Shown: piece by piece, positions 21,601 through 51,724 of the stretch
How positions within the stretch are numbered: position 1 is the stretch's first letter
Layout: every line of letters begins with the position of its first letter
Assembly (NCBI GenBank): GCA_947034885.2
Contig: OX344756.2
Location: 13,264,098 to 13,328,097, forward strand
Length of the DNA stretch: 64,000 nucleotides
Direction: 5' to 3'
Origin: Thuidium tamariscinum
Lineage: Eukaryota; Streptophyta; Bryopsida; Hypnales; Thuidiaceae
Notes under the pieces: generated by a model
What the model saw: only the letters and a program-made list of their open reading frames with translations
What the model was told of the DNA's origin: nothing
Databases searched by the model: none
Position numbers and translations under genes: made by a program

Positions 21601-21891
21601 GTTAAAAGCAATTAGGAAACTTGAAAATTCAACAAAAATATAATTGAAATTAGGATAGGTAGGGAAGATCCATTGCTAGGAAGGCACAATGAATTGATGC
21701 TTAGACATCCATAGGCTAGAACAAACATAGAACCTAATTTTGTTTGTTCGATTTCAAGAGTGGGAATTAAATACCCACAAGGATCTAACATGCATAACTC
21801 CAATCAATATTCAACTTTTCAAAACCTTTTCTATATACTTTTTTAAATCGATTTCTAATGAAATTTTTTCTATAAGATCTAGTGTATTTGG

Positions 21892-21906
21892 CAAGGCTAT
21901 GCGGAC
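21892..21906 (+). repeat. Left terminal inverted repeat of the giant hAT
   Basis: CAAGGCTATGCGGAC, preceded directly by GTATTTGG. It ends in GCGGAC, the same motif that fills the adjoining island. Confidence 0.6.
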
Positions 21907-22190
21907 GTCCGGGCGTCCGCGTCTGGACGTCCAGCGTCCGGCACCCCGCGGACGTCCTGTGACATTTGAATTTCCTGTATTTAGTGCGCCCGGTAAAAAA
22001 ACAGAGGCGGATGGCCGCCCCGGCCGCCGGCGTTGGAGGTCCCGTCCGCTGCGCCTGTCTCAGCGTCCGCCCCGACCGCCAGTGTCTGCCATGACCGTGA
22101 TCCCCTCCGCCACGACTGCATCTCGCCGTCCGCTTCGACCGACCGCGTCCGCCACGCGTCCGTGATGGCGTCCGCATCGACCCTGATGAG
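21892..22190. promoter_or_regulatory. GTCCGC island 1 (left subterminal)
   Basis: An abrupt GC-rich block in AT-rich DNA, packed with GTCCGC/GCGGAC and the palindromic form GGACGTCC (four times in the first 65 bases). It lies immediately inside the left terminus, where hAT elements carry subterminal transposase-binding repeats. Open frames through it on both strands are composition artefacts. Confidence 0.65.
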
Positions 22191-22512
22191 AATGTCTGGA
22201 AAAAAAATTAAAACTTTTCACCGTATAAGGTAACTAGTCAATTTAAAAGCTGAAACTGAATTTTGGGGAGGGGAAACGTCTTAAAATATTTTCCAGTAAA
22301 TTGCCTTTGAAAGACAAGTGGAATTGACATCTAACCGAAATTGTTTTATAATTTTTGAAGTTTTGTGGAATTAGTTATGAATTTTTGAAGTTGAAAGGGC
22401 ATAGGGCTTTGAAAACGCCCACCCCTGCAATGTACACCCTTTGTACATTGCTGAAGGCTACAAAAAGCAACATGTACAAGTAGTGAAAGTAGGCGGTTTT
22501 AGGCGCATTGAA

Positions 22513-22658
22513 CTTGCAATTGGTGGGGAAATTCATAATTAATTTTTGGAACAATGTACTTGATTACTTGAACAAGTTAACAAGAAGATCAACAAGTTGG
22601 TTTTCAAAAAAATAAATTAATGATGAAGATTTTGATTTTATAATTCCTTTAGGCGTTA
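22513..22658 (+). repeat. Direct repeat, left copy
   Basis: A ~145-bp segment beginning AATTGGTGGGGAAATTCA that recurs at 23892-24037. Shared landmarks include GAACAATG, ATTACTTGAACAAGTTAACA and GACAAGTTGGTTTTC. Confidence 0.65.
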
Positions 22659-23891
22659 ATAGTCAGTAGTCATCAATGATGGCAAATGACCCTATTAAAC
22701 TGATACTAAAAAAATTAATAATTTTGTTTCTAAATTCAAGAAATTTAAATTTTACTGGTAAAAACATTGAATATTAAATAGTATCAAAATAATTTTAAAA
22801 TAATGATGAAAATAATAAAATAATAATAATCTTGAAAACAACATCTTTATGTGGTTACATTGATTCCACATTAACCCCTAAAATTTAGGTATAAAAAAAG
22901 TGGATGTGCCTTGTTCAACTTTAATTCTAACTTTCAATATAGCCATTTTGGTATTTGACTTAAAATAAGAAAATGAAGCTTGAAAACTTTTCTTTTTATT
23001 TCAACTTAAAATTTTGAAAAATTCCAAGAATTGAAAAATTTATTGCAATTGCAAGTTCTATGTGTTGAAATCCGTCAAACACAATACATTGTCTTTTTCA
23101 TTCATATTTATTCGTTTTAAGATCAATCTTTAATTTCAATTGCAATATTCAGTTTTCCATTTAACATTCATTAATGGTGAAAATTTCAAACTATTCCAAT
23201 ATATAGTATAATTGATATAATTTTCTTAACTTTTTACTTTAAAATTATTACAATAATATGTAGTTTTCATCAAGCAATTTGTAGAAAAATAGAATATGTA
23301 GAAAGTAGAATTTTACAATAGAATTTCTCTTGATAATGTATAAAATCAAAAATTTAATTTTCTTTAATAGCCAAATTTGACTTTGAGGTCTTTGTTATTG
23401 TAGTTTTTGGTTCAAAATTTTTTAAAGGCAAATTGAAAATTTTATATAGTGATCTCCATTTATACTTGTACCTTTGGAAGAAATTGAAAGTATTTCAGAT
23501 TTTTTCTGCTAGTTTTCCTATATTTATTTTTAATTTTTGTAAGAAAATGATAACGATTAGAATTTTTCTCAAAATCAATTGCTCCCATTTTTGGTTCAAT
23601 TGATAATCAACTATTGTTTCAATCAAATTTTTGTTTCAATTGATTTTGTTATTTTTGTTTCAATTAAATATCTTCACAAAATCAATTGAAACCAAAATAT
23701 AAATTTTATATCGATAAAATTCATAGTTTCTATTCCATTTGGTCAAATATCATCCTTAAGCTAAAATAAGCATATCTTATTTTGTTCAAACATCAATCTT
23801 ATATTTTTATTACTTGAAACTATGAATTTTATATCACTATGAGGAAATTCAAATGATTTTGAGAGAAATTTTAGCCATCTTTTTAGTTGCA

Positions 23892-24037
23892 AATATTAAT
23901 TGGTGGGGAAATTCACAATAAAATTTTGGAACAATGCACCCTATTACTTGAACAAGTTAACAAAAAGATCGACAAGTTGGTTTTCTTAAAAAAAATTTAA
24001 TCATGAAGATTTTGATTTTTGACATTCCTTTCGGGAC
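23892..24037 (+). repeat. Direct repeat, right copy
   Basis: Second copy of the 145-bp segment, 1.38 kb downstream and in the same orientation. The intervening DNA is AT-rich and non-coding. Confidence 0.65.
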
Positions 24038-26177
24038 AAGTTTTTAGTATTTTGAAGTGCATTTGGGGCACGAGTCCTTTTGGGGTTAATGGCATTTTCG
24101 AATTTTGAATCATGATCTGTCCATGTCACGATTTTATTTAAAATTGCCATAAATTTCTCAGAGCTCCGCAAAAAGAATTTTGTCATTTGAATTTCATTTG
24201 TGAAACGTTTGTACACCTCTGAAAAATATATAACTCTCTTGAAGTTCACCCTAACATACTCAGATTGCAAGTCAGGGCGCTAATAGGTACTTCTACCTTA
24301 CTTACTACTTAGACCTTATACATCATGCAAATTGTTACACAACCTTATCAAGTATCTATGTGCACAACAACATCTACCAACAATAAATACTATTGATCTC
24401 ATTCCCCCCCCCATGAATACGTTTGCCTATCAAGTATCAAAGATCATAAACATTAATAGCTGAAATTTTCAAATGCTTTCAGTAATTCAAAAAATATAAT
24501 AGATTTCATTTGGGTTGCCATACATTGGTGCTCCGTATATATACTACGTATTATATATGCCGCACGTGTACATTCTCTCTATAACATAGACTATATATCA
24601 TTCTATACTTACGTATGCTATTATACTATGCCGATCTATTCATACGAACGCCGAAAGTGTTCATTGGGAGTAGGCCAGTTGAAAATACTAGTCCAACGAT
24701 TGATGATGCGTGCCAAACCGCCCGCATTCTCCGAGCCGTCTTTGCAAGGGCGCTCCAAGTACGCACGAAATGACATTGCCAAGTGTGAGTCCCCGATTCG
24801 TCACTGGGGACTCACGGGTTCTTTTTTCGCAATTCCTCCATAAACTAAGGCGTATTTGGGCTTATAAAACCCACAAAAGGGCATTAAACCGGTATTGGCA
24901 TTACACATACCAATGTGCCATTTAGTCATTAGGTGGGATTTAGGATAGTTTGCATCCAAAATGCCCTTATCGTAGCCAATTAGATGCCAAATTGATAGAG
25001 ACATGCAGGATTAGGGTAAGAAGCCTAAAAAGGCCCTGCCTAGGCTAGGGAGTCCTCATAGGGGGATCTAGGAGGAATCCCCCACTCCCCATAGCATCGA
25101 AGAGAATACGGACGAAATACTAACCTTGAAATGCAAGTACCAGGCGATTTCCTAATTCTTGGAGCACGCAGTGGGGATGCAGATTTGCATCCAAGTGGGG
25201 AGATCTCATGGGTGGTTCCCTCTGAAGTTTGGGAATTTTCCGACATTGTTTGGATATTTTCCCAGACGGTCAACCGCGGTGGATTTTGGGTGGGAATTCA
25301 AAAGAATATCCCAAAGTGCGGTAAAATCCCACTAAAAATCCGGCGAGGCGGTCTCACACCAACGGAGCGCTTTCCCAAGTTTCAAGACAAAACGATAGTC
25401 AGAAGATCCCGAATCGGCGACATTCCTCCCCAACTGACAAATTCAATGGCGGAAGCTGTAGTTGACCGGCGTACCGGGGCCATACGACATCGGAACAGAG
25501 CCTATCTTGGGTCTATTCTTACCCCCTTCCATCTACTTGGAAGATTGGTGAAGGTTTGGGGTCCAAAATTGCTAAACTCCAAAAGTTAGGAATTTATCCC
25601 AACTTTGATCCCAGCTTACACTAAGATTCCTCAAGAATTTGGACATAGTTTAAGGGGTGAAGGGTTTCCTTTAATCTAATTATGGCCTTCCGGAGCCAAT
25701 GGCGCAATCCGTTTGCCATTTGGAGCTAAACTCCAAAAGTTAGCCTTTTGGGGACAGCACATGGAGAAGAAATGGGGGTTTTAAGCCCCAATGCATTTTT
25801 GGGGAGTTTGGGCCCCATTAGCCGTGGGGAACGCGTAGGGAACGTATGGGGAACTTCGGGCACATGTGGGAGCAAGTACCACCTCAAAAAGTTAGTGGAG
25901 GTGGCTCATGTGCTTTGGTGTAAGTAATTTCAAATTAAGTAGGTGGGAACATATGGGAACTTCTCCCATGTGAGAACTTGTAGATTTTGGGGAAGGTAAA
26001 TTAGATGGTTTGCAAGTTCTTGTAAGGTTAGGTAAGATTTGAATTTCTCAATTCAAATTGTGTAGATTTTAGGTGGATAATTAGATTTGGGATGGGTAAA
26101 TATGTACGGACCTCCTAAATTCCCTCATCTAGTTATTCTTAGTAGATTAAGGGGGGGGGGTGTTGCTCCCTTTTGGG

Positions 26178-26185
26178 TATAAAAG
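26178..26185 (+). promoter_or_regulatory. TATA box in the LTR-like repeat
   Basis: TATAAAAG, 18 bases after a run of ten G. It is followed by a pyrimidine-rich CTCTCT stretch at 26200-26220, as in an LTR U3/R junction. Confidence 0.45.
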
Positions 26186-27136
26186 GGGCGGCATTCTCCT
26201 CTCATTCTCTCTCTCTCAACTCCTACCCATTTAAGGGAGGAGCACTATTGGGCCCGGGTTATGCCGGATTTCCTTTGGCTTTTGATGCCAAAGGAGCCTT
26301 TGATAGTTTTGGGGTTGTTGCACCCTTGGCTCTTGTGGTTTATAGTTGGGGACTTGAGACCCCCCCAAGTCTTGTGGGAACTTTTGTTAATTGATGGTGA
26401 TCCACCTTTTGTATTGTGAAACAAGTGAAAGTTGTTGTGGGAGAGACTAGTGAGGAACCGAGGGGTGACTTGGGAGGTGACTTAGAGAGTATGCTTGCAA
26501 TTTGTACCTACCTCCTTCCTCCCTCTTCTTGTGCATAAGGCTAATCTAGTCCCATGAGGGACGGCGGAGCCTTGACCTTCCTCTAAACACTTAGCATTTG
26601 TGAATAGGAAGTCCCTCTTTTCTCCCCCTTCTCTTGTCCACGGGAATAGATTGGTCCCATGAGGGACGGCGGAGCTATGGCCCCCCCAAGTCTCTAGGCA
26701 ATTAGAAGTCTTAGTCAAGTGTCAAAAATACATTCTCACGGCGAAGCTTTGAACCCCCTAAGTCTTAGCGGGGTGTCAAATGCAAGTCCCTTCACAATAG
26801 CAACAACGTTTAGTTTCCAACACCTTGGAAATTAACCCAACGTTTAGCTTCCAACAACTTAGTAAGCAAGTCCTCACATAGTTTAGGAGCAACTAGTGCC
26901 CACCCAACCACTTAGAATACACTTTAACATTATATTAGGAATTAAAAACCAGGGTCCAGCCCAAGTCCAGAGCCAGCCACATTTCGGAGCCAACCCCAGA
27001 CTAGAGCCAGCCCCGAGAGCCAGCCTCGCAGAGCCAGCCCCGTCGGAGCAAGCCCCGCAGAGCAGCCCGCAGAGCCGCTCCGGAGGGGGTCTGCGTGGGT
27101 ATTGGGGGCCGGGTATTGGAGGGAGGGCCGCAGCAG

Positions 27137-27310
27137 TTGGGAAATATGGTAATTGGGTAGTTTAGGGGAAAATATGGTAATTGGGTGGTTTAGGGGAAAA
27201 TATAGAAATTAGGTAGTTTAGGGGAAAACATAGAAATTAGGCAGTGTAGGGGAAAATATAGAAATTAGGTAGTGTGGGGAAAATATAGAAATTGGGTAGT
27301 TAAGGGGATA
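27137..27310 (+). repeat. 28-bp tandem repeat
   Basis: GGGGAAAATATAGAAATTAG-type units start at 27165, 27193, 27221, 27249 and 27276, giving a period of 27-28 bases and about six units. Confidence 0.75.
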
Positions 27311-27639
27311 GAATAGGAATTAGTGGAGCTAGGAGCTATTGCAAAAAAGACTTAATTGTAAGAAGCACCCGGAGAGGGATAATTAAAAGAGCCGGGGCCA
27401 AGACATGGCAATGATGGACGTGGCGTGGAGTGAAGAGGACCGGATCCACGGAACGGAGGTGGGCCTCTAGACCTTCCTTTGATTTAATTTGTTAAATGCA
27501 AGTAGGGGTTAATTAGTAGGAAAAGGTCAACATCCCAAGTGGGATTAAGGTCCGGCAATTAGCAAAGACAAATAGGAAGATAACCACAACTAGAATAGAA
27601 AGAAGAAGAAGGAATACCAATACATAGAGTGGAATGAAG

Positions 27640-27860
27640 TGAAGACAAATACGTAGAATAGAGGGGTACTCAATTAAAATACGTAAGTAGAAGTAGAACA
27701 ATACCAATACGTAGAGTAGAGGGGTACTCAATTAAAATACGTAAAATAGAAGTAGAACAATACCAATACGTAGAGTAGAGGTACTCAATTAAAATACGTA
27801 GACTAAAACCAAGACGAATACGTAGAGTAGGGCAAAAGAACACAAATACGTAGAATAGAT
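27640..27860 (+). repeat. 58-bp tandem repeat rich in TACGT
   Basis: GGGTACTCAATTAAAATACG recurs at 27664 and 27722, and with a 2-base deletion near 27780. AATACGTAGAGTAG continues beyond the array to about 27860. Confidence 0.7.
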
Positions 27861-28163
27861 TAAAACCAAGACAAATACATAGAATAGGATAATAGTACGA
27901 AGATGTAGAGATGGGGTAGGAAATACCATAAGTAAAGTGGGCTAAACAAACCCAAACACGTAGAAGTAGGATAAACGAGAACAAAGCATAAAAGTAGGAC
28001 AAGAGAACGAAACACATAGAGTAAGCGACAATTAAAAGTAGGACAAGGGAACGAAACAAACCCTAGGTAGGATAGTAAAAAAGATCCATTGCTTGGAAGG
28101 CACAATGGATTGACGCTTAGACACCCGTAGGTAGTAGAATTGTTAGAGCCTAGTTGTGATCGC

Positions 28164-29555
28164 TTAATTCCAAGGGTGGGAATGAAGCGCCCACACCAAG
28201 GCTTGGTGATCAAATTTGCTCATGCTTGCTGTTTCCATGTTCAACTTGTGGTACTCCTCTGACATGCAATCCCTGTTAATTGCCATGGCTATTTTGCACA
28301 CCGCGTACTCCTCCGTTGCAATGGATAAACTTGAAATTACTTGCACATTTTTGTCTTTTTCGTGCAAATATGCAATCTTGGAGGTCACCCACCAACGATT
28401 TTGCAAAGCAGCGTCCATCTCTTGTTTGGATGTGAACACGTACAATGACTTCGGTGGTTCTGTAACGTATAAAGTCATGCCCCAATCGCACACTCCAATG
28501 TACACGCGCGACTCGTCCGCGGGAAAGTGCAACATAATGTTGTCCAATGAGATATCATTGTGCAAATATCCTGCATCGTGCACCGCATGCATGATATGCA
28601 ACAACGCCCATGCTAGCTCCGTACGTTTCTTCCGAAATCATGCAAGATGGTCCGCGGCAATGACATCCGCATCCGTTGGCGAGCTATATTGCAAGTGCAT
28701 ACGTATATTGTCTGGATAAGTTCTATCCAAATGCATCATCTTCCGCAAGGTCCCGCCATTCCACCAATATGCATATCCTTCATTCATCGTTGCATGAACT
28801 GCAGAAAACCGTATCACTCCGGGATGGCCAATCCGCACCGCCATGGACTCGTTTTGGTGTTCCGCCTTTGCAAGATGAGGTAGTGTCTGTTGTACATTAG
28901 ATAGCTTTGCTGCAAACTCCCAATACTCAGGTATTTCACGGCATCCCCAAATTTGCACCTTCCGAATTGTTGCGTACCCGCCTTTGGTCACGACATTATC
29001 ACAATAAATCACGGTCGCCGTGTCTGGAAGCGCTATTAGATGCTTCCTGCCTTCCGTCAATTCAACCATTCCATCACTGATTTTCCACCAACCCATAGAT
29101 CCTCGTCTGTTCCTGGCAGACGTGAATGGAGCATATCGGTCGACAAACAATTCAGCCCTTAGAATGACTTGCTCAAATGTGGCATCATGTTCACGGTGAT
29201 GCTTCCCATACTTCGTTAAGATGGCCTTTGCATTCCACAACGCGTCATGCACCTTGTTTTTCAATAACTGCTCAAAGCCACTCTTATTCATCTCACTATG
29301 CCATTGTGGAACAGAAACCGCATCCATAAACCGTCGCCATATGTCATCCTTGAATTTTTTAGGACAGTCCTCATTGTAGCGAACATACTTCATCTGCAAG
29401 GACATCGTGTTCTCCGATTCGTAGAAGTCCACGATCACTTTAATCATTATATTATTCAATGCTTCAGAGGGCTTGTTTGCTTTTGCCTCCTCTTTAGATG
29501 GACTTGCCACTTCCTCCAGTTTCCTTTTACCCGCCTTCTTTGTTCGTCCCATCAT
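28164..29555 (-). pseudogene. Protein-kinase-like cargo gene with one in-frame stop and a replaced 3' end
   Basis: One continuous frame starts at ATG 29555 (a second ATG follows at 29552) and is interrupted only by TGA at 28638-28640 (codon 306). Kinase hallmarks span both sides of the stop: a glycine-rich loop GGYATIRKV (about residues 192-200), a lysine in EFAAKL (about 217), a hinge-like YWWNGGTLRKMM, then the catalytic loop HNDISLDN (about 332-339) and CDWG in place of DFG. Catalytic Asp and Asn are kept. The first 190 residues are a basic, helical region I do not recognise. The last codons (from about 28213) come from the LTR-like repeat, so the original C-terminus is lost. Island 2 lies 160 bp upstream. 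Replacing the stop with a CGA codon would need one C-to-T change. Confidence 0.7.
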
Positions 29556-29714
29556 GATAAAAATCACGTCAAAACTTCAAAAAAAAGCAACAAGGGGGCC
29601 CCAATAATGTCACCCTTGCTTTCCCTAGGAGGGGAACCAATGGAGACTTAAGAACTTAAGCCACCAAGCTTTCCACTCCACGCTTGCAAAATGCAAGGGA
29701 GAAAACAAGAGTGA

Positions 29715-29980
29715 GGGCGGACGGCTTAAACCACCCCTCTTATACCCTAGCGGATGCCCTAAACCTGTGCGGACGACCCGACGAGGCGCTGTCCGCCGTC
29801 CGATCGATCGGACAGGCGCGAACGGGCAGACAGATATGCGTCCGCCTCGTCGGACGGCAGTAGTCCGTCCGCCGACGCAATGCACATTGGAAACGCGTCC
29901 GCCCGATCGGGCGGACGAGAAGTCCGCCGTCCGATCGATCCGACGGACGACCATGATCAAGCGGGTGCCGTCCGCCTAAT
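29715..29980. promoter_or_regulatory. GTCCGC island 2, upstream of the kinase-like gene
   Basis: A dense GTCCGC/GCGGAC block with operator-like palindromes: GTCCGATCGATCGGAC (29798-29813) and GTCCGCCCGATCGGGCGGAC (29897-29916) are perfect, and GTCCGATCGATCCGAC (29929-29944) is one base off. A TATA-like TATAAGAG (29737-29744, minus strand) lies at its gene-side edge, so it sits where a promoter should be. Confidence 0.65.
29737..29744 (-). promoter_or_regulatory. TATA box of the kinase-like gene
   Basis: TATAAGAG on the minus strand, about 180 bp upstream of the start codon and on the gene side of the palindromic motifs. Confidence 0.45.
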
Positions 29981-29986
29981 CCAATG

Positions 29987-32900
29987 GTCTACTTTGTAGA
30001 AGGCCTTCATTTGAAATTTCACGTAAAGAGGGGCCAAAAAAATATGGAGAGGTTGAAATTTCTTAGAACATTTGTGTTCTATGACAAATTCCCATTTGGA
30101 AATTGAAATTGCCTACTTTTCGTGAGATTCCCAAAAATAGGCTACATTGCAATATTTGGAGTTTTTTGCTAAGTGCCCTATTCATTTGAAATTTCACATG
30201 AAAAGGGGCCGACAAAAATATAGAGAAGTTGGAATGTCATAGGACATTTATTTTCTATGATTAATTTCCATGCCACATTTGAAATTATCTAGTTTTGATT
30301 TTATTTCAAAAAATACGCCATGTAGCCATTTTTAGCTCTACTTTGTAAATGGCCTATTCATTTGAAATTTCACGTGAAGAGTGAAGATGGGCCGACAAAA
30401 ATATGGAGAAGTTGGAATGTCATAGGACATTTATGTTCTTTGACTAATTTCCATTCCACATTTGAAATTGTCTAGTTTTGATTTTATTTCAAAAAATACG
30501 CCACGTAGCCATTTTTGGGTCTACTTTGTGAATGGCCTATTCATTTGAAATTTCACGTGAAAAGGCGCCGACAAAAATATGGAGAAGTTGGAATGTCATA
30601 GGACATTTATGTTCTATGACAAATCTCCATTTGGAAATTGAAATTGCCTATTTTTTGTGAGATTCCCAAAAATAGGCTATATTGCAATATTTGGAGTTTT
30701 TTGCTAAGTGCCCTATTCATTTGAAATTTCACGTGAAAAGGGGCCAACAAAAATATGGAGAAGTTGGAATGTCATAGGACATTTATTTTCTATGATTAAT
30801 TTCCATGCCACATTTGAAATTATCTAGTTTTGATTTTATTTCAAAAAATACGCCATGTAGCCATTTTTAGCTCTACTTTGTAAATGGCCTATTCATTTCA
30901 AATTTCACGTGAAGAGTGAAGATGGGCCGACAAAAATATGGAGAAGTTGGAATGTCATAGGACATTTATGTTCTTTGACTAATTTCCATTCCACATTTGA
31001 AATTGTCTAGTTTTGATTTTATTTCAAAACATACGCCACGTAGTCATTTTTGGGTCTACTTTGTAAATAGCCTATTCATTTGAAATTTCACATGAAAAGG
31101 GGCCGACAAAAATATGGAGAAGTTGGAATGTCATAGGACATTTATGTTCTATGACGAATTTCCATTCCACATTTGAAATTGTCTTGTTTTGATTTTATTT
31201 GAAAAATTACGCCACGTAGCCATTTTGGGGTCTACTTTGTAAATGGCCTATTCATTTGAAACTTCACATGAAAAGGGGCCGAGAAAAATGTGGAGAAGTT
31301 GGAATGTCATAGTACATTTATTTTCTATGATTAATTTCCATTCCACATTTGAATTTGTCTAGTTTTGATTTTATTTCAAAAAATACGCCACGTAGCCATT
31401 TTTGGGTCTACTTTGTGAATGGCCTATTCATTTGAAATTTCACGTGAAAAGGCGCCGACAAAAATATGGAGAAGTTGGAATGTCATAGGACATTTATGTT
31501 CTATGACAAATCTCCATTTGGAAATTGAAATTGCCTATTTTTTGTGAGATTCCCAAAAATAGGCTATATTGCAATATTTGGAGTTTTTTGCTAAGTGCCC
31601 TATTCATTTGAAATTTCACGTGAAAAGGGGCCAACAAAAATATGGAGAAGTTGGAATGTCATAGGACATTTATTTTCTATGATTAATTTCCATGCCACAT
31701 TTGAATTTGTCTAGTTTGGATTTTATTTCAAAAAATACGCCACGTAGCCATTTTTGGGTCTACTTTGTGAATGGCCTATTCATTTGAAATTTCATGTGAA
31801 AAGGCGCCGACAAAAATATGGAGAAGTTGGGATGTCATAGGACATTTATGTTCTATGACAAATCTCCATTTGGAAATTGAAATTGCCTATTTTTTGTGAG
31901 ATTCCCAAAAATAGACTATATTGCGATATTTGGAGTTTTTTGCTAAGTGCCCTATTCATTTGAAATTTCACGTGAAAAGGGGCCGACAAAAATGTGGAGA
32001 AGTTGGAATGTCATAGGACATTTATGTTCTATGACGAATTTTCATTCCACATTTGAAATTGTCTAGTTTTGATTTTATTTGAAAAATTACGCCACGTAGC
32101 CATTTTGGGGTCTACTTTGTAAATGGCCTATTCATTTGAAATTTCACATGAAAAGGGGCCGATGAAAATGTGGAGAAGTTGGAATGTCATAGTACATTTA
32201 TTTCCTATGACTAATTTCCATTCCACATTTCAAATTGTCTAGTTTTGATTTTATTTCAAAATTTACGCCACGTAGCCATTTTTGGGTCTACTTTGTAAAT
32301 GGCGTATTCATTTCAAATTTCACGTGAAGAGTGAAGACGGGCCGACAAAAATATGGAGAAGTTGGAATGTAATAGGACATTTGTGTTCTATGACAAACTT
32401 CCATTTGGAAATTGAAATTGCCTATTTTTTGTGAGATTCCCCAAAATAGGCTACATTGCAATATTTGGAGTTTTTTGCTAAGTGCCCTATTCATTTGAAA
32501 TTTCACGTAAAAAGGGGCCGACAAAAATATGGAGAAGTTGGAATGTCATAGGACATTTATGTTCTATGACAAATTTCCATTTGGAAATTGAAATTGCCTA
32601 CTTTTTGTGAAATTCCCAAAAATAGGCTACATTGCAATATTTGGAGTTTTTTGCTAAGTGCCCTATTCATTTGAAATTTCACATGAAAAGGGGCCAACAA
32701 AAATATGGAGAAGTTGGAATGTCATAGGACATTTATGTTCTATGACAAATCTCCATTTGGAAATTGAAATTGCCTATTTTTTGTGAGATTCCCAAAAATA
32801 GGCTATATTGCGATATTTGGAGTTTTTTGCTAAGTGCCCTATTCATTTGAAATTTCACGTGAAAAGGGGCCAACAAAAATATGGAGAAGTTGGAATGTCA

Positions 32901-40908: not shown

Positions 40909-40921
40909 AGCTTTAAATATG

Positions 40922-41036
40922 ACTTCTGGAGAACCCAATGTTCACTTTGGACTTGTGGAATCCAATGTTGACTTTTCACTTCTGGAATCCAATGTTGACT
41001 TTTCACTTCTGGAATCCAATGTTTAGTTTGGACTTG
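40922..41036 (+). repeat. 27-bp tandem repeat next to island 4
   Basis: CTTCTGGAATCCAATGTTGA-type units; GGAATCC starts at 40957, 40984 and 41011, with a diverged unit before. The units sit directly outside the island that precedes the RING gene. Confidence 0.75.
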
Positions 41037-41039
41037 AAA

Positions 41040-41280
41040 TCTGAGCGGTCGGCAGAGCGGACGCCTTTGTCGGACGCCCAGTCGGTCGTCAAGGCGGACG
41101 GGCAGGGCCGAAGGGCGGACGCTGGGCGGTCGGATGGCCGGCGGGGCGGTCGGACGACAGGTCCGCCGGACGGGCCTGTCGTCGGACGACCTGTCCGGCG
41201 ACGGTCCGCACTGGCCGTCCGCCGGTCCGGTGCCGGACCTGTCTAGGTCTGGCGGCGGACGAGTATATGGTCGGACGGCC
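41040..41280. promoter_or_regulatory. GTCCGC island 4, upstream of the RING gene
   Basis: Dense GCGGACG, GTCGGACG and GTCCGCC motifs, with an inverted pair GACGACAGGTCCG (41153-41165) and CGGGCCTGTCGTC (41170-41182). Weak TATA-like TATATGG at 41265 at the gene-side edge. It ends about 230 bp before the start codon at 41509. Confidence 0.6.
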
Positions 41281-41508
41281 CCTTCATTTTCCCTCACTTC
41301 TTCTCTCCTCACGAAGTGCCCCAAGTCGGATGTGTTGCTTATTGCCATGTGTGAGTGCGTGGTGCTAGTTGCGCCTACTTGGCGGAGAGAAGGGGTCATT
41401 ACTTTTTCACGTCGAAGCTTTGACCGATTGTATTACGAAGACACGTTTCATACCCTCCGGTTCACAGAATTTTGATTTGCAAGGGCTTGTAAATTCGGAT
41501 TCTCTATC

Positions 41509-44500
41509 ATGGCTACAGACAGCGGTGCAGGTACTGATGGGATGAATTCAGGAGGTGACCAGAAAAAGCGAAATAAAGTGAAGGGGACTACACATGGACT
41601 ACACTATGAAATTTTGGATGATCCGAACATCATAGCAGAGAGTGGTTGGGAAAATGAGACCGTAGATTATTGGACTTCCAAACTATGTAAGCAGTACGTT
41701 AAAATGTACCACATCAACAAGTTGTGGCCTCGGGATGCACACGCACGCCAGACTACGGATTTCAACTGTAAACCACACAGTTGCATTGACCCGCACTTTG
41801 TCCATCGAGTGACAGAGGTGTGGGGGGCCATGTTTGGCCCTAAACCAATGTCTAAAGGGTACATCAACTACAACTTGGCGTCCATGGTGTATGCAGAACT
41901 GAGATTGAAACGCAAGGTGGATTGGAGCACGTTCCAAACAACAAAGAAGAATCCTCTACTGCTGCAGTAAAATCAAAAGGATATTCCTGATTCCTGGCCG
42001 CAGACGGCGCAGAGGGTACAACCAATCTTACAAAATCCAGCAACGCCTACAACGATGGCCTCAGCAAGCGCATGTGCGAAACCGCAATTGGATTCGAGGG
42101 AGCCGACATCGAAAGTTATGAACGTTTCTGCGGTTCATGTGAATGACCAAAACAAATCTCCCAACCGGGAAGAGCTCGTCAACAAAAATGGTGTCCCGTC
42201 TTCTCTGAAGACGGACCCTACGGACGAAGAGGTTGCAGGGGCCAATGTCACAATTGGACATTATGCAGATAGTGGTGTTTTAGATAGTTTGGGATATGCA
42301 ACTCCAAATCCACAGTTGCCAACATCGGAGAGCCCATTGTGTACTCCAATCACTCAAGAGGACCTGTCAAGAACGAATGTGCAACAACCCAATGCTGCAA
42401 AGACGAATGTGACAGTGGATACATATGAGTTTATAAAGAAGTATCCACATTTGTCAAGTTTAGACTCGACTAGCTTCAAGAATCTTGTTGCAATGCCACA
42501 GATTCCGCATTTGGAAGGCTTGCTTGACCTTAGTATGAAGTGGAAGACAGTTGAAGAACGTTTGTTTCCATTTGAGCAACGGACTCAGCAGAACGAGCCG
42601 GAAAGCAATACTCCACCGAAGAAAGCATATAAACCCGCTGACTTTCCACATGCCGCTCTGGCATTGACAAGAACTGCCACATGGATAGATGAATTGGCTC
42701 CAAGGGTTGGTGTGTTTGCCGATGAATTAGCGTCCCTAGCTCCTACACTATTGAGCGGTGCGACGGCTTTCCTGCACTTCACTGATCAAATGTTACCAAT
42801 TCTCACGTCCGCGATTCATTGTGAAGAAAGTCACGTTGAATTGAGGGAGCAGCTAAAAGAAAGTGCAAGAGAAATTATATGGTGGAAGACTGAGCTCAAC
42901 AAGGAACGACAAATACCCAAAAACAAGGAAAAGATTCAAAGGATGGCTGAATCATTGAAATGTATTGAGCCAAGTCAAGGGACTCAAGGTAGCGATCAAC
43001 TCTCTCTTCCAATGGACAAGGGCAAAGCTCATGTCGAGCCAGACCAACAAACTTTGCCGATTGGCCGTAAAAGTTGGCTTGACTTGCAAAAAGAATTGGA
43101 CCAGTCCAATGCCAAAAAAGCCCTTCTTCAGTCCAAGTTGGATCAAATGATACGAGTGCAGGCCATGGATGAATATTTGCCTAGGAGCGGATCGGAGTCT
43201 CGTTGGTTGGGATGGGTACAAAAACTTTAAGACCCACCCTTATTAGCAGCTCGAGAAATGAACAAGCTTTGTACGATTGCATTGAAGAATAACGATGAAT
43301 GCAATGCCGTCAAGAAACATTTGAAGAAGTTCAAGAGCGAGGTGGATCGCCATCCAATTGAGAGTGCTTCAATCACATGTTGGGGAAACACAGATGCTAT
43401 GATGGAGTGCTTGAACCACACAAAGAAAACGGAGGGTGGAAATATCAATTGGGCCTTGGAAGTAGAGGAAGGATGGGTCCCTTACCAAACGCTTTCAGCA
43501 CACATCAACAACAAGGAGAAGCGTGTTATGCATAATTTTGATGCACGTCATAAAATGTTGGATGGTATTTGTACAGTTTGCCAATACGCTTTTGGACCTG
43601 AAGGAGCCATAACCTTGGGCCATTGTGGCCACACTTTTCACGTGCGGTGCATCATTCAAGCATCAATGTTTAGCTCGGTTTGTGCCGAATGTCGTTCTCC
43701 TTTGAGTCCAAGGTTTTATGAATTGTTTGGACTCTTGGATGTTATGCCCCTCAGCCAGGAATACAACAGGTGGACCCTTCCATTGGACCAAGGGCCATAC
43801 GAATTTGTGAATTATAAGCATTGGGGAAAACCTTTACAATGGAACCCAACAGAACGGAAGCATGCATTGTACGATGAAGTTGATGGTCCAGTGGATGCTT
43901 TCAATTGGATGACCCAAACGAACGAGGTGGAAATACGTACCCATTCAATTGACGATGATGAGGGTCGTGAATTGTTTTGTCGCAATATGGGGGGGCATTG
44001 GAGCGTGCAACGTAATAAGTTCTTCCGGTTTCCAGAGAAGCATGTGGAGAAAATGGAAGGTGGAGAATGGGTTGCCGTGGAGGATTCAGAAGAATTCAAG
44101 GAACAATATGCGGCATACAACCACGGTTTGATAGGTCGGGCCTTGTTGTTGTCAAAGTTGGAAGAAGCTGCCGAATATCGTGCTTCCGTGGACATAGATG
44201 CGGAATGGAACACAAGCGAACCAATGGTGGAGGTGGTGGAGGCGTTTGACCGGCGGGTTGGGGAAATCATAAAGCAGTGGAGGACACTTCTATTCGAAGG
44301 ATGTACAACCGAAAAATCATTGAATGAATTCTCATTTGAAGTGGCCAACAAAGTGGTAGACGAGGTCTTACTTCGATTGCAGTTTACTTTGTCAGCCTTG
44401 AAGTTGAGGTCTGTGGATTTGACTCCCAAAAGAGAGAAGAAACGGAAGTTGGAAGATGATGATGATTATATAGTGGACACGGCAGAAGCATTCAAAGTAG

Positions 44501-44649
44501 TTGAGCGGACTAACAAATCCGCACGACTAGCTGGCTCTGAAAGCCCTGAGGCCCAAGCTCGTCGAGAAAGTCTAAGAAGTGCAGCTCGACGCACTAAAGA
44601 TGAATCGTCTCGTGGTTCGGGAGAGGGTAGTAGTAGTAAAACAAAGTAG
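41509..44649 (+). pseudogene. YVKM-domain plus RING-H2 cargo gene, two in-frame stops
   Basis: One frame of 1046 codons from ATG 41509 to the stop at 44647 is interrupted by TAA at 41968-41970 (codon 154) and TAA at 43228-43230 (codon 574), with no frameshift. Residues ~32-145 form the YVKM domain shared with the gene at 36457-37530. A central region (~480-580) is charged and likely coiled. A RING-H2 zinc-binding domain follows: Cys688, Cys691, Cys706, His708, His711, Cys714, Cys725 and Cys728 (C-x2-C-x14-C-x-H-x2-H-x2-C-x10-C-x2-C), all eight ligands intact. This suggests an E3 ubiquitin ligase. The C-terminus is basic then acidic (KREKKRKLEDDDD), a likely nuclear signal. It could be an intact gene read through its stops, but decay is more likely. 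Confidence 0.65.
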
Positions 44650-45654
44650 ACATGGACCTATACGTCTTATATGAGTTTTTATTTGAACCATCGTATTGTA
44701 TGGACTATGGATGGTTAGATGGTGATGTGGATTTTAAAAGGATAGAGCAATACTAGGTAAACGTACACGGAATATGCTTTGACTTATTATCGGGTTTTTT
44801 AATATGAACATATATATGGAATTATTTATCTATCTATTCATTTATCTATCTATTTATGTATGTATCAATTAGTCAATGTACATATTCACTATGCACAATA
44901 CTTTTTGATGTGGAATGTATGCTATTAGAGGCATGGTATTGGATGTAAGAAATTATGATTGAATATTATAATCTTTGAATTCTTAATTGATTTTGATTTG
45001 TTTTGTTCTTGTATATGATCTCTAATATGCCTAGTTTCAATTGGCACGGTTACCATGCAGAAAAAAAAATATACAACTTATAAAAATGTTTGTTGTTTGT
45101 TCAATTTGAACAAATTCGTCGAAGCTCAAAATAGGCCTTGGACATTTATGGGTAAACACTAGAGGTGTTTTCAATAAAATATTATTTTCAATAAACATGT
45201 ATAGTTGTGAAATAATTTCTAAGAACTACTTCCGTCGGTAGATTTGAAGTTGCTTTCTATGAGCAAATCCTTAGAACCTGAAATTTGGCATACATATTAT
45301 CAACATAGACTCATAGAGATGATCTCATGCCAAGAATTTCATGGCCAAATTTTAATTTCTCAATCTCTGCTTCTTTGGGAGGGTGTCAAAGTTGGTAGCA
45401 TTGGAATTTTAGTCACAACCACACATGTACGTAGATTTTGAAATATCTTTTTCTGGGCAAATCTTTTGGCCTTGAAATTTGACGCATGTGTTATTAACAT
45501 AGAGACGATCTTGTGCAGAAAATTAAATGTAAAAATAACAATTTTTGAGCCCTAGGGAGGGCGTCAAAGATGGCAACAGTAGGGGATTTTTTTTTCTATG
45601 TGACAGCAAGAATTCGTAAATGAAGTAGACCTTACTGTATATGTTTTACACACG
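44650..45654. other. Spacer between the RING and transposase genes
   Basis: No gene. It contains a TATC/TATT microsatellite (44824-44866) and a diverged tandem duplication of about 190 bp: 45237-45425 and 45426-45600 share GTAGATTT, GGCAAATC, CAACATAGAGA, CCAAATTTTAATTTC and GAGGG(T/C)GTCAAAG-type landmarks in order. Confidence 0.5.
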
Positions 45655-45800
45655 GCCAGTCCACCTGGACCGAACTAGCCGTCCGCCCCCGACCGAACTA
45701 GCTGTCCGCCTCCGACCGAACTGGCCGTCCGCCCCGACCGATTTTGCTGTCCGCTTCGATTCAGCAACTGTTGCAATGGGTATTTGACTGTCCGCCCCAA
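45655..45800. promoter_or_regulatory. GTCCGC island 5, upstream of the hAT transposase gene
   Basis: Four tandem units of CCGACCGAACTAGCCGTCCG (about 26-bp period) followed by a further TGTCCGCCCC. A TATAAGTA follows at 45823 and the start codon is at 46057. Confidence 0.65.
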
Positions 45801-45822
45801 CGGTTAGCTGCGCTCAGTTTAC

Positions 45823-45830
45823 TATAAGTA
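45823..45830 (+). promoter_or_regulatory. TATA box of the hAT transposase gene
   Basis: TATAAGTA, just downstream of the island and about 230 bp before the start codon. Confidence 0.45.
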
Positions 45831-46056
45831 GACTGAGAGAAGTCATTTGTAAGCATTCCTGATGAACTGAACACTAAGATTTCCAAGGGCTAGGCGCTGC
45901 AAATTTATTTGTGTCCCTTGCTTGGTAATGTATAGTTTGGTGGAAGGGGGGGCTTTTATTTTGAAGGCTTTTTGCACTCAATGCTTATTTGATTGTGGAC
46001 TTTTACAACACAGTGCTAATGTTACCAATTACAATTGAAGGGAAAAAGAATTCAAT

Positions 46057-49000
46057 ATGAGCAAAGACTTCACCACTTGGTACACGATCTCAGAAACAAA
46101 CAAAATACAATGCAAGGCTTGCAAGTGTGTGTTCGCCCGAAAAACTAGCCGTATGTTGAGCCACTTGGGATACGAAGGCCCTACGGGACAGCGTGATAGG
46201 GGCATCGGCTTGTGCTTGCAGTTGACATCCAGAACAAAATCCTTATTTGTTAATTGCAAAGGGCTGTTTCCCAAAAGACCTGTTGCGGACGGAACGGATG
46301 GCAACGACATGCCAATGTCCACAAGCAATCTTTTGAATGATAGGGGCACGTCGTATTCTACGCAAGAAGATTCATGCACCGCACCGGAAGAAGTGGTTGC
46401 TGTGGGTTCGCAAATAACTCCAAATACGGAATCAGGTGGTAATCGGCATACTTCGAGGGCATCAAGCAGTAGGCCTGCAATGCAGAGTAGGCTAATAGAT
46501 GGATTTGATGAAGTCAACAGACGCAAATTACATGGAACATGGGCTCATTTCTTTTATTCAGCGAATATACCATTTTCAGTAGCTCGAAATCCAGCCTTCC
46601 GGGAAGCGGTGAAGTTGACGGCTGAGTTTAAAAAGTCCTACACTCCTCCATCATACAATGATCTGCGACATAAATTGCTTGAGCAAGCGAAGTCAGATAT
46701 TCAAACGAAGTTGCTTCTGAGGACTAAAGACAGTGTGAGGAAGTTCGGAGCAACACTGTCTTTTGATGGATGGAGCTCGGTGACGAACTGTCCATTAATA
46801 AATGCAATGCTCATATCTTCAGCAGGTGAACAATTCCTTGGATCGGTGGATACGAGTGGACAAAAGAAGACAGCACCGTATGTGGCTTCTATCTTGGAAG
46901 AATTCATAGAGCAAGTGGGCCCCAAGAATGTAGTGCAAGTGACTGCGGATAATACCAATACAAACCTCACAACATGGAATTTGGTGTCCCATAAATATCC
47001 ACACATATATTTTCAAGGATGTGTGGTGCATGCCTTGAACTTGTTGCTTAAGGATTGGGCGAAGCAGCCATGGATCAAAGATTACGTGAAGGCTGCCGAG
47101 GTCGTTGTCAAATTCTTCAGGAAGAGGCACATGCCACTTGCCATATTTCAGAAGTAAGAGACGAGGTTCAGTTTGTTGAAGCCGTTGGAAACAAGGTTTG
47201 CTTTTTATTTCATGATGATTGACCGCTTGTTGGAAGTGAAGGATGCGTTGAATCAGAGTGTGATGGATCCACAATGGGTGGAGTACGTGAACACCTTGGA
47301 TGATAGAGACAAAGGCAAATCACGATCGCAGTCCAGGAACGTGTACAATATAGTTGTGGATGAGCATTTCTGGGACAGGTTGACCAATGTGCGGGAACTG
47401 ACAGCCCCAGTTGTATTTGGTCTACGTGATTTGGATGCAAAGACGCCGTGCATGGGGAAGGTATTGCATATTATGCGGAATTTAGAAAAACATGTGTTTG
47501 GTCTACGAAGAGCACCTTTTTGTTTGGACCTTGACTGAGCAATACCACTGGAGGAGTCCTTCGTAAAACGACAAAAGATGGGGGAGACAGACCTCCATTA
47601 TGCAGGCGCTCTTTTGAACCCGTATCTTCTCCACGACAAAGAACTAGCCGACGATCAAAATGCAACAGAGAGATGCAAGAAGGTTCTAACGAAGATATGT
47701 TCTAGCGAAGAGTGCGCGAAGGTGGTGAAGGAATTTGTAGCCTTCCGCTATAGGGAACCTCCATTCGATACCATGTTGGAGCCACAAGAACAAATGTTGT
47801 CGGCCCATGCTTGGTGGGATTTTGAAGGTGCATGTGGGAAGCTAATTGCTCCCATTGCCAAGAGGATTTTGGCCCAACCGGTGTCATCATCTGCATGCGA
47901 ACGAAATTGGAGTAGCTACTCTTATGTTCACAACAAATCTCAGAACAAATTGGCAACAACCCGGGCAGCGGACTTGGTGTATGTGTACACCAATTCAAAA
48001 GTTGTGGGCGCATCGAAGAACAAGGATGAGAAGAAATGGTACAGAGACAATGTGGACTACGAGTCTTCCGATGCGGGAAGCGATGCGGAAGACATTGATG
48101 ATGGACCTCATCCACTTGACCAACGGGATGAAGATGACGGGGACAATGACATGGACAATTTGTATGACAAAACGTACCATAGTCCTAATCCAACGAATGG
48201 TGGGTGGAGAGGCAATAATACAAGCATCTATGACTTTCAATCCGATGAGGAGAATGATGGGTACGGTGAAGATGAACCTCGTATAGCAAGATTCGTGGAT
48301 GGATCCGGGTTTTTGAATAGCGAATCTATTCTATCGCAGAAGGAGGACGCTTTTGGAGAGATAGCGGAGGCGGATGGGACAACACTTCCCGATGGTGGGG
48401 ATGGTGGCACGGATGAAGGCATTCGTATTTGTCAATCTCCATCTATAGGAGGGGTTCAAGAAAAGGATAATGATGAAGAAAATGATGGAGAAAGGGGTTG
48501 TACGGACAATGAAGAGGTCCCAATCAATACAATTTCAGTAAAGGAAAATGGTACTGAACGTGTAGAAGAGGTCGAGAGTCCAAGCTTTGGCAATACACTC
48601 AAACGTAGAGAAGAGCTCATGCAAGATTCTCCAAAACCACCTCGGAGCGGTGCACCGGGTGCCATATTTGGAACTAGTAGCGAAAATCCGGACGGTTCAA
48701 GGAGCTTAGGGCTTGGACATCGGCTTGTTAATGTTGGCAAGGCAAAGCAGCCTTGCATCGAATTTACTGCCACTGTATTATCATCCACCGATGATGATGG
48801 AGATGTGACATTGGCACAGATGAAACGTAATTTAGCTTTGCACATCGCACCGCCACGATGCAATCTGAAATCAGCAGCCTCTCCACCACAATCTTCGAGG
48901 GCCACAAACATAATCGTTCATGGATGTCCCCAGGCAATGAAATTAGAGGTCAAAGTAGGCAATGAAGGTAATAAAAAAAGACCTATGCAGCCTTTCGCGG

Positions 49001-49317
49001 TTTCACCAGTGAAGACATTGAATGCAGGTAGAACCCCCCTTCATGCATGCCTACCTGTTGCAAAGAGGAAAATGAAACCGGTCGCGTGTCTAAATTCTAG
49101 GGAAGAAATTAGCAAAGCCATATTGACAGTAAAAGAGGAATACAAGAATCCAATCAAACGAAGGAAAGCAAAGAGAAGTAAGCAAGTAGATGGTGTAGAA
49201 TCTTCATCAGATGGTATGGAGAACACATCGAGCAATGAAGACGTAGGATACAGACGAGGATGCGGGAGTAGTGGGGCAGAGGTGAAAGGAGATGATGATT
49301 ATTGTCCTTCTAATTGA
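46057..49317 (+). pseudogene. BED-finger hAT transposase (DUF659 type), two in-frame stops
   Basis: One frame of 1086 codons carries TAA at 47155-47157 (codon 367) and TGA at 47536-47538 (codon 494), with no frameshift. Domains in order: a BED-like zinc finger (CKAC at 19-22, His36), a serine-rich linker, a DUF659/RNase-H-fold core with Asp237 (SFDGWSS), Asp298 (TADN) and CVVH (322-325), then the hAT C-terminal dimerisation region with PVSSSACERNWSSYS containing Glu615. All three expected catalytic acids and the conserved Trp after ERN are present. About 400 residues after the dimerisation region are acidic and disordered, an unusually long tail for a hAT protein. It is the only transposase between the giant element's ends, so it is the likely source of its mobility. 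Confidence 0.85.
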
Positions 49318-49535
49318 AGGGATGTAAGCTTAGGGCTTTAGATGCTCATATATACCAAGAGTAGGTGATTACCATATGTTGTTGAGGAAGACTTTAATAA
49401 ACAAGGTTTGTTTTTGTCTTTCATGAATGGTACAACATCTTTGCTAAATCGGAGTATTGGACATCAAATGCAATATGAATGTTTAAATGTGTGCCTAAGG
49501 GATTGTAGTTTAATGAATGGGAATCAAAGAAAACC
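49318..49535. other. 3' side of the transposase gene
   Basis: Non-coding. A phrase around ATGTGTGCCTAAGGGATTGT and ATGAATGGGAA here is echoed at about 50205-50250 and, weakly, at 51222-51250, on either side of the two TTAA elements. Confidence 0.4.
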
Positions 49536-50127
49536 TAAACCCCTAAAGTTCCATGACTATGTATTCACCAAAAACGCTCGAAAACTACCATTTCTAGTAC
49601 AACTACCAATTTCCTTGATAAAAACATTTTTTGATACATGTAACCATAGGATCTTGTAGTATAATGTTTACAAAACATGTGGTAAAAATTTCATAAAATT
49701 CCACCATGTGGATCAAAAGATATAAGCATTCAAATTCCCCTAAACCATTTTTTCAATCCTGCAAAGAATTGGGCAGCTACACTTCACAAGCTCACTTCTC
49801 AAGGAAAAAATGTTGAAAATGGTGGTGCCTCTTTGAATTCAGTTTCCTAAACAAGATGGAGATATGCTCAAAAAATTTCATGTCATTTGGAATTGTACAA
49901 CATATAGGAAAAAAATAGTAAGTAAAAAGAAGTAGAGAATGATTCATAATAGGCCATAACTTTTGAGTCATATCTCCAAATGTCATGAAATTTGATACAC
50001 ATGAAGATATTCCTCGCCCCCACCTTCTATTAAAATTTCAGCCCAAAATATTCAAATTTCTAATCACACGTACCTGCCCAAAATTTCTATACAGCCCCTA
50101 AACGCATGTTGGTCCTTTAGGGGTTAA
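49536..50127 (-). mobile_element. TTAA-bounded element, copy 7 (inverted, shortened)
   Basis: The plus-strand right end is GGTCCTTTAGGGGTTAA and the left end is decayed (CTAAACCCCTAAAG). Landmarks run in reverse order (GGGCAGCTACACTTC). At about 590 bp it is internally deleted. Confidence 0.6.
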
Positions 50128-50264
50128 AATGTTAAAATATTTGCCTAAAACCTAAGGGGTTGTAGGTTCACAAATCCTAATTCAATTTCAATATTGAAAT
50201 GTTTAAATGTGTGGTTAAGGGGTTGTAGGTTCATGAATGGGAACCTAAAGAAACATTGAAATGT

Positions 50265-51215
50265 TTAACCCTTAAACGCCCAAACTGCGTTTTTTGGCAA
50301 CATAGCAATTTTGGGCAGCTCACTACGAATGGAGTTTTTATTTTTCTTTCTTTGAAATTCTCATACAACGTGTGTTCGAGGAGTAGCTTTAAGGCCCAAC
50401 AATTTTCATAACTTTTGACAACATGAATAAAAATTTATTGCATGATATGTGATTTCTTTTGCTCGGCGGGCAGCCCGGGCAGCTGAAAACTTCTTCAAAA
50501 ATCACTTTTTCTAAAATTTGAAATTTGAAATTCATTATTTAGATTTTTATCTACTTGGAAAGCTTTTAATTATTCCATTTTGATTTGTGAAATGAAAGTT
50601 ATGGGAGTTTTAGTTTGAAGGTAGTTTGTGGGAAGTTATGGAATCTCTACTCCAAAATAAACTTTGAAGTCCATTATTTTACTCAATTTTTAATATTTTT
50701 GAAAAAAAATAAACACATTAGGTGAAGATTGTCTATTACAACATTACAACCATTGGGATTGGAAATTTTCAATTTCAAAAATTAATTATTACTATTTTAA
50801 TATTTTGATTCATTTTCTACCTCTTTCTACTTACTAATTGTTTTCTACATGTTGTAGAACTCCAAATGATTTGAAATTTTTTAGGCATGTAGCTTACTTG
50901 ACTAAAAGAATGAATCGAAAGAGTAACAACCATTTTAGACTTTTTTTCATACAAAAGTGAACTATTGAAGTGCAGCTGCCCGGATTTTCGCAACAACAAA
51001 AAAAGCATTTTTGACAATTCAAACACTATTATCTTGCAATCTATACGGTGGAAATTTCTGAAATTTTTTCCACATATTCTCTAACTAGTTTACTATAAGA
51101 TCCTACGGTTACATTTGTCTTAAAATGTTTTTAAAAAAAGATTTTGCTGTTGTACTAGAAGTGGCAGTTTTGAAGTGTTTTTGGCAAAACATAGTCAAAT
51201 ACATTTAGGGGTTAA
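50265..51215 (+). mobile_element. TTAA-bounded element, copy 8
   Basis: Starts TTAACCCTTAAACGCCCAA and ends ATTTAGGGGTTAA. Very close to copy 1 internally (GGGCAGCTCACTACGAATGG, GCTCGGCGGGCAGCCCGGGC, GTGCAGCTGCCCGGATTTTC). Length is 951 bp. Confidence 0.8.
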
Positions 51216-51324
51216 ATATTCCCTTAGGACGTTGTAGGTACAAGAACCTGAATCCCAATAAATATGTGAATGTTAAAGAACACTATGAACCCCCCTAAGA
51301 CCCGAGGTCGAGGATTGAAAAATA

Positions 51325-51716
51325 AAAAGGGGGCCGTCTAAAGCCGTCCGCCATCTGCCCATTCCGCCACCCCGTCCGCCAAAGGCCCGCCCGTCCGCCG
51401 TCCCGTCCGCCACTCCGTCCTCCCGTCCGCCATCGCGTCCGCCTGTCGGTCCTCCCGTCCGCCGTGCCGTCCGCCAAAATTCCCGCTGTCCGCCACAATA
51501 CACACCGTCCGCCCGCCGTCCGCGCAAATTCAACGGCCCCCCGACCGTCCCGCTTCCCCGTACTCGACGTCCAACAGCCCGTCCGCCGGGAAAAACGCCG
51601 TCCGCCATGCTAATTTGGCCGTTCGCTGTTTACCCAACGTCCGCTGCGCCCGCTGCGTCCGGACGTCCGGATTTTGGGCGTAATTTCCCAAAAGACGTAG
51701 AGTCCGCACAACCCTA
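51325..51716. promoter_or_regulatory. GTCCGC island 6 (right subterminal)
   Basis: About 25 copies of CCGTCCGCC-type motifs at roughly 20-bp spacing, then GTCCGGACGTCCGG near the end. It closes with the right terminal inverted repeat. Unlike the internal islands it has no gene downstream, consistent with its being the 3' subterminal region. Confidence 0.65.
51702..51716 (-). repeat. Right terminal inverted repeat of the giant hAT
   Basis: TAGGGTTGTGCGGAC on the minus strand, followed on the plus strand by GTATTTGG at 51717-51724, identical to the 8 bases before the left end. Confidence 0.6.
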
Positions 51717-51724
51717 GTATTTGG

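Follow-up and report, generated by a model that had tools for sequence, protein, structure and literature searches.

The window analysed here is a 64,000-nucleotide stretch of the genome of the moss Thuidium tamariscinum (C8:13264098-13328097), and between positions 21884 and 51724 it contains four genes enclosed by the ends of a hAT-type transposon. From left to right, these are a kinase-like gene (28196-29576, - strand, 518 amino acids (aa) when intact), a YVKM gene (36457-37530, - strand, 370 aa when intact), a YVKM-RING gene (41476-44649, + strand, a frame of 1058 aa with a RING-H2 domain) and a transposase gene (46039-49317, + strand, 1092-1096 aa, with BED, DUF659 and hATC domains). Apart from the transposase, none of them is a gene known for transposition. 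Judging from the ends, the genes and the other copies in the genome, we are highly confident that the stretch represents one mobile hAT-type unit, namely a decayed copy of a multicopy transposon of roughly 22 kb with this four-gene set, to which we refer as family A.

The decay of the window copy is apparent from its reading frames, as all four genes carry in-frame stops: two each in the YVKM, YVKM-RING and transposase genes and one, at 28640, in the kinase-like gene, which is also cut by a long terminal repeat (LTR). For every gene there is nevertheless some copy in which it is open as one frame (transposase 1092, kinase-like 518, YVKM 370 and YVKM-RING 1058 aa); a transposase frame of 1092-1096 aa is open in 8 of the 74 scored loci, and the 1058-aa YVKM-RING frame in 3 of the 67 scored family-A loci. 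Introns were considered as the cause of the stops and rejected, since in other copies the genes are uninterrupted single frames and the stops mostly fall at different codons from copy to copy; the stops common to copies are two, at transposase codon 500 (window and C5) and YVKM-RING codon 969 (C2 and C5).

An earlier note on this DNA had proposed a single mobile unit on the basis of identical 8-mers flanking 15-bp inverted repeats, and both features were found exactly as it described them. The target-site duplications (GTATTTGG) lie at 21884-21891 and 51717-51724, and the terminal inverted repeats directly inside them, CAAGGCTATGCGGAC on the left (21892-21906, + strand) and TAGGGTTGTGCGGAC on the right (51702-51716, - strand), differ by four mismatches, all of which are transitions. 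Judged from the window alone, this pairing is little proof, because a shuffled window contains about 17 identical 8-mer pairs in which exactly 11 of 15 inverted-repeat bases match (the real window has 172, many of them satellite-derived); GTATTTGG itself occurs four times on the + strand of the window, and the two occurrences besides the flanking pair both fall inside the span. The proof comes instead from other genomic copies.

These were sought in the window's own genome (363 Mb, 19 contigs); only the best candidates were scored, and the genome totals given here are lower bounds. Both ends recur at exact bases. With the left-end query, 40 places were scored, and 20 of 57 alignment rows begin exactly at query base 9 (21892) and 27 within query bases 5-12, while 36 of the 42 rows obtained with the right-end query stop at bases 514-519, 29 of them exactly at base 516, which adjoins the terminus at base 517 (51716). 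The family A terminus reads CAGGGCTGTGCGGAC on the left and mostly CAGGGTTGTGCGGAC on the right, so the ends of the window copy have mutated. Ends were then paired by contig, orientation and distance and their flanks were read. The 40 left-end places gave 20 pairs for testing in addition to the window, and the other 19 could not be matched to any of the 40 right ends scored. Target duplications were perfect (8/8) in 13 of the 20 pairs and 7/8 in another 4, for which the chance with random flanks is <1e-49 (before allowing for the choice of pairs). The 17 duplicated pairs span 7.5-185 kb; ten pairs with end-read exact spans measure 22,266, 22,348, 22,604, 23,065, 26,298, 42,435, 61,379, 68,663, 68,761 and 184,966 bp, and the remaining seven about 7.5-10.2 kb. 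Loci with the same ends 15-40 kb apart between matching 8-mers, which the earlier note had suggested looking for, therefore exist along with shorter and longer ones, and its proposal of one hAT-type unit is borne out by ends that recur at exact bases and are paired with duplications. Chance pairing of the ends is excluded by these copies. That two separate smaller hAT insertions merely have matching flanking 8-mers, as the comparable pairs in shuffled windows and the two further GTATTTGG copies within the span could suggest, is extremely improbable, given that 17 of 20 tested pairs join the same two ends, each with its own different duplication, and that the 22.6 and 26.3 kb copies align end to end with the window element except for extra blocks.

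The assignment to the hAT superfamily, which includes the Ac, Tam3, hobo and Hermes types, draws on ends, duplications and transposase alike. The terminal repeats are of the YARNG type, beginning on the left with CAGGG in family A and in two sister families, B and C, and on the right with CAGGG or TAGGG. Duplications of 8 bp with at most one mismatch flank the window element, 17 of 20 family-A pairs and the one family B element (1/1). They have T at position 2 in 13 of 18 cases and A at position 7 in 8 of 18, a bias that we count in favour of a hAT element as it matches the hAT target preference nTnnnnAn. Between the ends lies a single hAT transposase gene, as had been noticed, in which Pfam finds BED, DUF659 and hATC domains. 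The dimerisation domain (PF05699) exceeds its cut-off in an intact copy as well as in the window, and the DUF659/RNase-H-like core (PF04937) was found with an E value of 1.8e-34. The BED zinc finger (PF02892) reaches 21.1 bits in the window versus a cut-off of 20.6 and, at 18.6 bits, is below the cut-off in the intact copy. In an alignment of families A, B and C, the acidic residues of the DGW, (A/T)DN and (C/Y)ERNW motifs, which we take to be the D, D, E catalytic triad, are common to all three.

The 29.8 kb that the earlier note had taken as the size of the element is that of the window copy and not the native length, which is roughly 22 kb (four family-A copies span 22.3-23.1 kb); about 8 kb were added by a solo LTR and by satellite expansion. 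The solo LTR (24784-28195, + strand, 3412 bp with TG..CA ends) lies near the 3' end of the kinase-like gene between 5-bp duplications, CCAAG, at 24779-24783 and 28196-28200, accounts for 3.4 kb and is not present in the 22.6 and 26.3 kb copies. The 176-bp satellite array (29992-35735) comprises about 32 units, and a 17-base marker of the satellite, counted 22 times in the window, occurs twice each in the 22.6 and 26.3 kb copies and five times in the one of 42.4 kb. At 92-96% identity, the first two of these copies match the window at 21892-24782, 28196-31143 and 38102-51715; in the 22.6 kb copy the alignment begins at 21925 and there is an extra match to 37318-37998 at 90% (matches beginning inside 29901-35799 were left out of the listing). 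Those copies above 23 kb whose interiors were read have been lengthened by later insertions, plus the satellite growth in the window: the 26.3 kb copy has 3.9 kb extra within its YVKM-RING gene, and in the 42.4 kb copy this gene holds an insert of 20 kb. The copies of 61-185 kb were read at their ends and through gene matches only.

At the lower end of the size range, gene content was compared with the window in four of the seven small duplicated copies. These four (7.5-8.4 kb) have 8/8 or 7/8 duplications, family ends and part of the non-coding interior, and a match to the transposase region is absent from their listed alignments to the window. Proteins of the element thus probably act in trans.

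Several other loci of the family were recorded in passing. At C7:21594610-21779575, family A ends with a perfect duplication (GGTACCTC) span 185 kb, with family A kinase and transposase matches inside. On C11, three transposase copies with nearly equal scores lie 54 kb apart (14408852, 14462910 and 14516973), which suggests a tandem segmental duplication containing an element. At a pair of ends 248 kb apart (C2:8308298 and C2:8555530; L041 and L042) there is no duplication, but the right flank contains, six bases from the end, the reverse complement of the 8-mer of the left flank. In the window itself, just beyond the left end of the element, a fragment at 21651-21779 has 77% identity to the 3' end of the nested solo LTR, so that a relative of this LTR adjoins the element. 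Likely host genes are represented by a Bet v 1-like coding piece (3998-4327, - strand) and a Myb/SANT-like one (54871-55617, + strand); the former is in keeping with a land plant, and the low GC content and the sizes of the chromosomes would point to a bryophyte. Open frames at 60931-61557 and 62329-62712 (- strand) resemble, by eye, a decayed different hAT transposase, and neither had a Pfam match at E 0.01.

The kinase-like, YVKM and YVKM-RING genes had been described in the earlier note as cargo. This description is not supported, as all three are fixed components of the family, and the two diverged sister families have them too, wholly or in part. Gene order was counted over 74 of 84 transposase rows (10 second gene pieces were dropped), all 90 RING rows (67 + 23) and 126 of 127 kinase rows (70 + 56; C11:14345417 was dropped). 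Of the 67 family-A YVKM-RING loci, 62 have a transposase on the same strand at most 70 kb downstream, 56 have a kinase on the opposite strand at most 80 kb upstream, and 53 have both, that is kinase (-) upstream and transposase (+) downstream; controls in which one gene was sought on the wrong side or strand gave 5, 0, 2 and 1. The order in family A is kinase-like, YVKM, YVKM-RING, transposase.

The sister families extend this picture. The 20 kb insert of the 42.4 kb copy is an LTR flanked by the duplication CCCAC; it belongs to the LTR family of the window's solo LTR, and within it sits the 16,692-bp family B element, with the duplication CCTATGGG and the ends CAGGGTTG and TAGGGTTG. The solo LTR of the window is an unoccupied relative of this target, as the joined flanks of the family B element align through it with a single target copy. 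Family B has a 933-aa transposase frame with 39% identity, a kinase in two pieces, split by a stop, with 29%, and a YVKM-RING gene with 25-26%. Family C emerged as a second group of matches, with 50-51% identity in YVKM-RING (23 loci, 12 of them open over 1194 aa) and 57-60% in the kinase (56 loci). At 17 of the 23 YVKM-RING loci its kinase is found on the opposite strand, 7-8 kb upstream (controls 0 and 0). All four genes are open at C3:10121695-10143925 (YVKM 377, kinase 503, YVKM-RING 1194 and transposase 1118 aa), with 40-56% identity to the genes of the window, and the left end of this element recurs at the same base. In two further family C copies, 22,518 and 22,439 bp long, the duplications (AGGTCCAC and ATTAAGGC) are 8/8.

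Capture of host genes was accordingly rejected. Pack-type elements have host gene fragments that vary between copies, and here the same genes occur in order at 53 of 67 family-A loci and are shared with the diverged families. Kinase and RING domains are common in hosts, and giant transposable elements of other superfamilies often hold additional genes, according to the excerpts of PMC12477816. Yet a normal-sized hAT element that captured its genes by chance would hardly be expected to have kinase, YVKM-RING and transposase genes that recur across three families of only 25-56% protein identity, a separate YVKM gene in two of the three and single open frames for each gene, and we consider such an origin quite improbable.

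Among the accessory proteins, Pfam finds RING-H2 in the YVKM-RING protein, and the motifs HND..N and DWG are present in the kinase-like protein of each of the families A, B and C. Positions with Trp, Cys, His and Tyr are conserved in the alignment of the YVKM domain, which is found alone or within the RING protein. Public protein sets, mostly metagenomic, contain 50 relatives of the YVKM protein (36-71% identity over aligned parts where given) and 12 of the YVKM-RING protein (37-58%). The structure model made for one YVKM relative, confident over about residues 11-150, had no significant match in the PDB or in the BFVD viral structure library. A multi-gene set with such an unusual domain and no structural match might point to genes that came from another element, virus-like or a second transposon, through a single fusion with an ancestral hAT element, as in Teratorn. 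We regard this origin as unlikely, though less so than chance capture: polymerase, integrase, capsid and recombinase domains were absent from the 19 Pfam-scanned frames of the window and copies, and the kinase and YVKM-RING genes are present in all three families, so that any merger would be old. The same 19 frames contain no DUF3435 tyrosine recombinase captain, and the element has inverted-repeat ends and 8-bp duplications instead, on which grounds a Starship was rejected; a Polinton/Maverick was likewise rejected, as PolB, retroviral-like integrase and capsid genes were not found among them.

A further shared feature of the families is their GTCC-rich islands. The islands just inside both ends that had been seen before (21892-22200, + strand, and 51340-51716) were confirmed, and additional ones precede all four genes of the window copy, at 29751-29990 (kinase-like), 37751-38090 (YVKM), 41041-41290 (YVKM-RING) and 45669-45795 (transposase), which makes six in family A. 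Outside the element, the hexamer GTCCGC occurs three times in the window in either direction. Family C has GTCC peaks at both ends and before the kinase, the YVKM-RING gene and, more weakly, the transposase, and family B at both ends and before the kinase and YVKM-RING genes. We take the islands to be likely binding sites of an element protein.

What can be read directly from the genome is that the element inserted with 8-bp duplications, spread to many copies, received nested insertions and decayed in many of its copies, and that open transposase frames exist. Beyond these, the transposase would cut and paste the element in the usual hAT manner, recognising the terminal repeats together with the GTCC-rich arrays, and deleted copies would be mobilised in trans. 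As the same motif islands occur at the ends and before the genes, one element protein may bind both, thereby coupling expression to mobility. With less certainty, the three accessory proteins might form a regulatory or anti-silencing set acting on host chromatin or proteins, in which the kinase, a putative RING ubiquitin ligase and YVKM as a DNA- or protein-binding domain would have their roles. Accessory proteins are known from other plant DNA transposons, and the proposed role is based on this analogy. Alternatively, they could be needed for transposition itself, for instance by bridging the ends of a long element, and not for countering silencing. That the kinase and YVKM-RING genes are kept in all three families, and that the YVKM domain, with Trp, Cys and His conserved, is present either by itself or as part of the RING protein, would fit this alternative; the sequence gives nothing to distinguish the two roles, and the four copies of 7.5-8.4 kb without a transposase-region match bear 8/8 or 7/8 duplications and have similar interiors. 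A role in the reaction is less likely than not, though of the alternatives considered here it is the most probable.

Several observations weigh against the reading of family A and its relatives as giant hAT elements with a kept gene set. Three of the 20 family-A pairs failed, two of them with spans of 248 kb and 945 kb and the third being a copy whose left terminus was not found; the 248 kb pair encloses two separate family-A transposase copies. The protein kinase domain of the kinase-like protein is below the Pfam cut-off in families A and C and above it in B. Pooled ratios of nonsynonymous to synonymous substitution (transposase 0.52, YVKM-RING 0.64, kinase 0.38), although counted in favour of this reading, are not far below 1 and come from six copies, mostly decaying. 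No separate YVKM gene is demonstrated in family B, where the YVKM match falls in the YVKM-RING gene, and the gene order of B differs, with the transposase left of the kinase and not right of YVKM-RING. The YVKM gene is to the left of the kinase in family C and to its right in A. Only two of the four family C copies read have clean 8/8 duplications; the other two, with 8/8 and 7/8, have two extra bases between the duplication and the left end (extra-base copies are at L070 1184-1196 and at L073 and L079).

On balance, we lean towards an old, unreported lineage of giant hAT elements in plants, defined by a kept set of kinase, YVKM-RING and usually YVKM genes that may serve, via the shared motif islands, as the element's own control or anti-silencing apparatus. 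This leaning is only somewhat stronger than even, and we have lowered it slightly because family B has no demonstrated separate YVKM gene and a different gene order.

The element resembles other members of its superfamily in the BED-DUF659-hATC transposase, the short terminal repeats starting with CAGGG and the 8-bp target duplications. Unlike a typical hAT element, it has a core of about 22 kb with three accessory genes, GTCC-rich islands at its ends and gene starts, and a transposase of about 1090 aa with a long C-terminal tail. The giant KDZ, EnSpm and Sola-1 DNA transposons of Ectocarpus are, in the excerpts of PMC12477816, generally >10 kb and in some cases >30 kb; like the element described here, many have additional genes, nested insertions and pseudogenised transposases, but they belong to transposase superfamilies other than hAT, which makes up 0.05% of that genome and is not named among the giants in those excerpts. 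ToxhAT/ToxTA of wheat-pathogenic fungi is a 14 kb cargo transposon once called hAT; unlike the present element, it was reclassified by its authors as Tc1/Mariner-like on its TA duplication and is single copy and likely non-autonomous (PMC12506042, in excerpt). Teratorn and Polintons (PMC6431247) and Starships (PMC12506042) are likewise giant cargo- or multi-gene DNA elements, but by the same partial texts Teratorn is a piggyBac-herpesvirus fusion, Polintons have polymerase/integrase machinery and Starships tyrosine-recombinase machinery. No description of a giant hAT element was found in the open-licence PubMed Central literature, represented mostly by titles and the starts of abstracts, and the word hAT has no occurrences in the available text of the 2019 review on giant transposons (PMC6431247). 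Within the open-licence PubMed Central literature, this agrees with the view of the earlier note that a giant hAT with such genes is undescribed.

Our findings bear on how the superfamily as a whole is seen, as hAT elements, which have been studied more closely than most DNA transposons, are regarded as small. A numerous hAT element of 22 kb with three conserved accessory genes, two diverged giant relatives within one genome and open copies demonstrates that multi-gene giants can arise in this superfamily too. Family A provides a tractable system in which to ask how accessory genes benefit a giant transposon and how a transposase joins ends that lie tens of kilobases apart.

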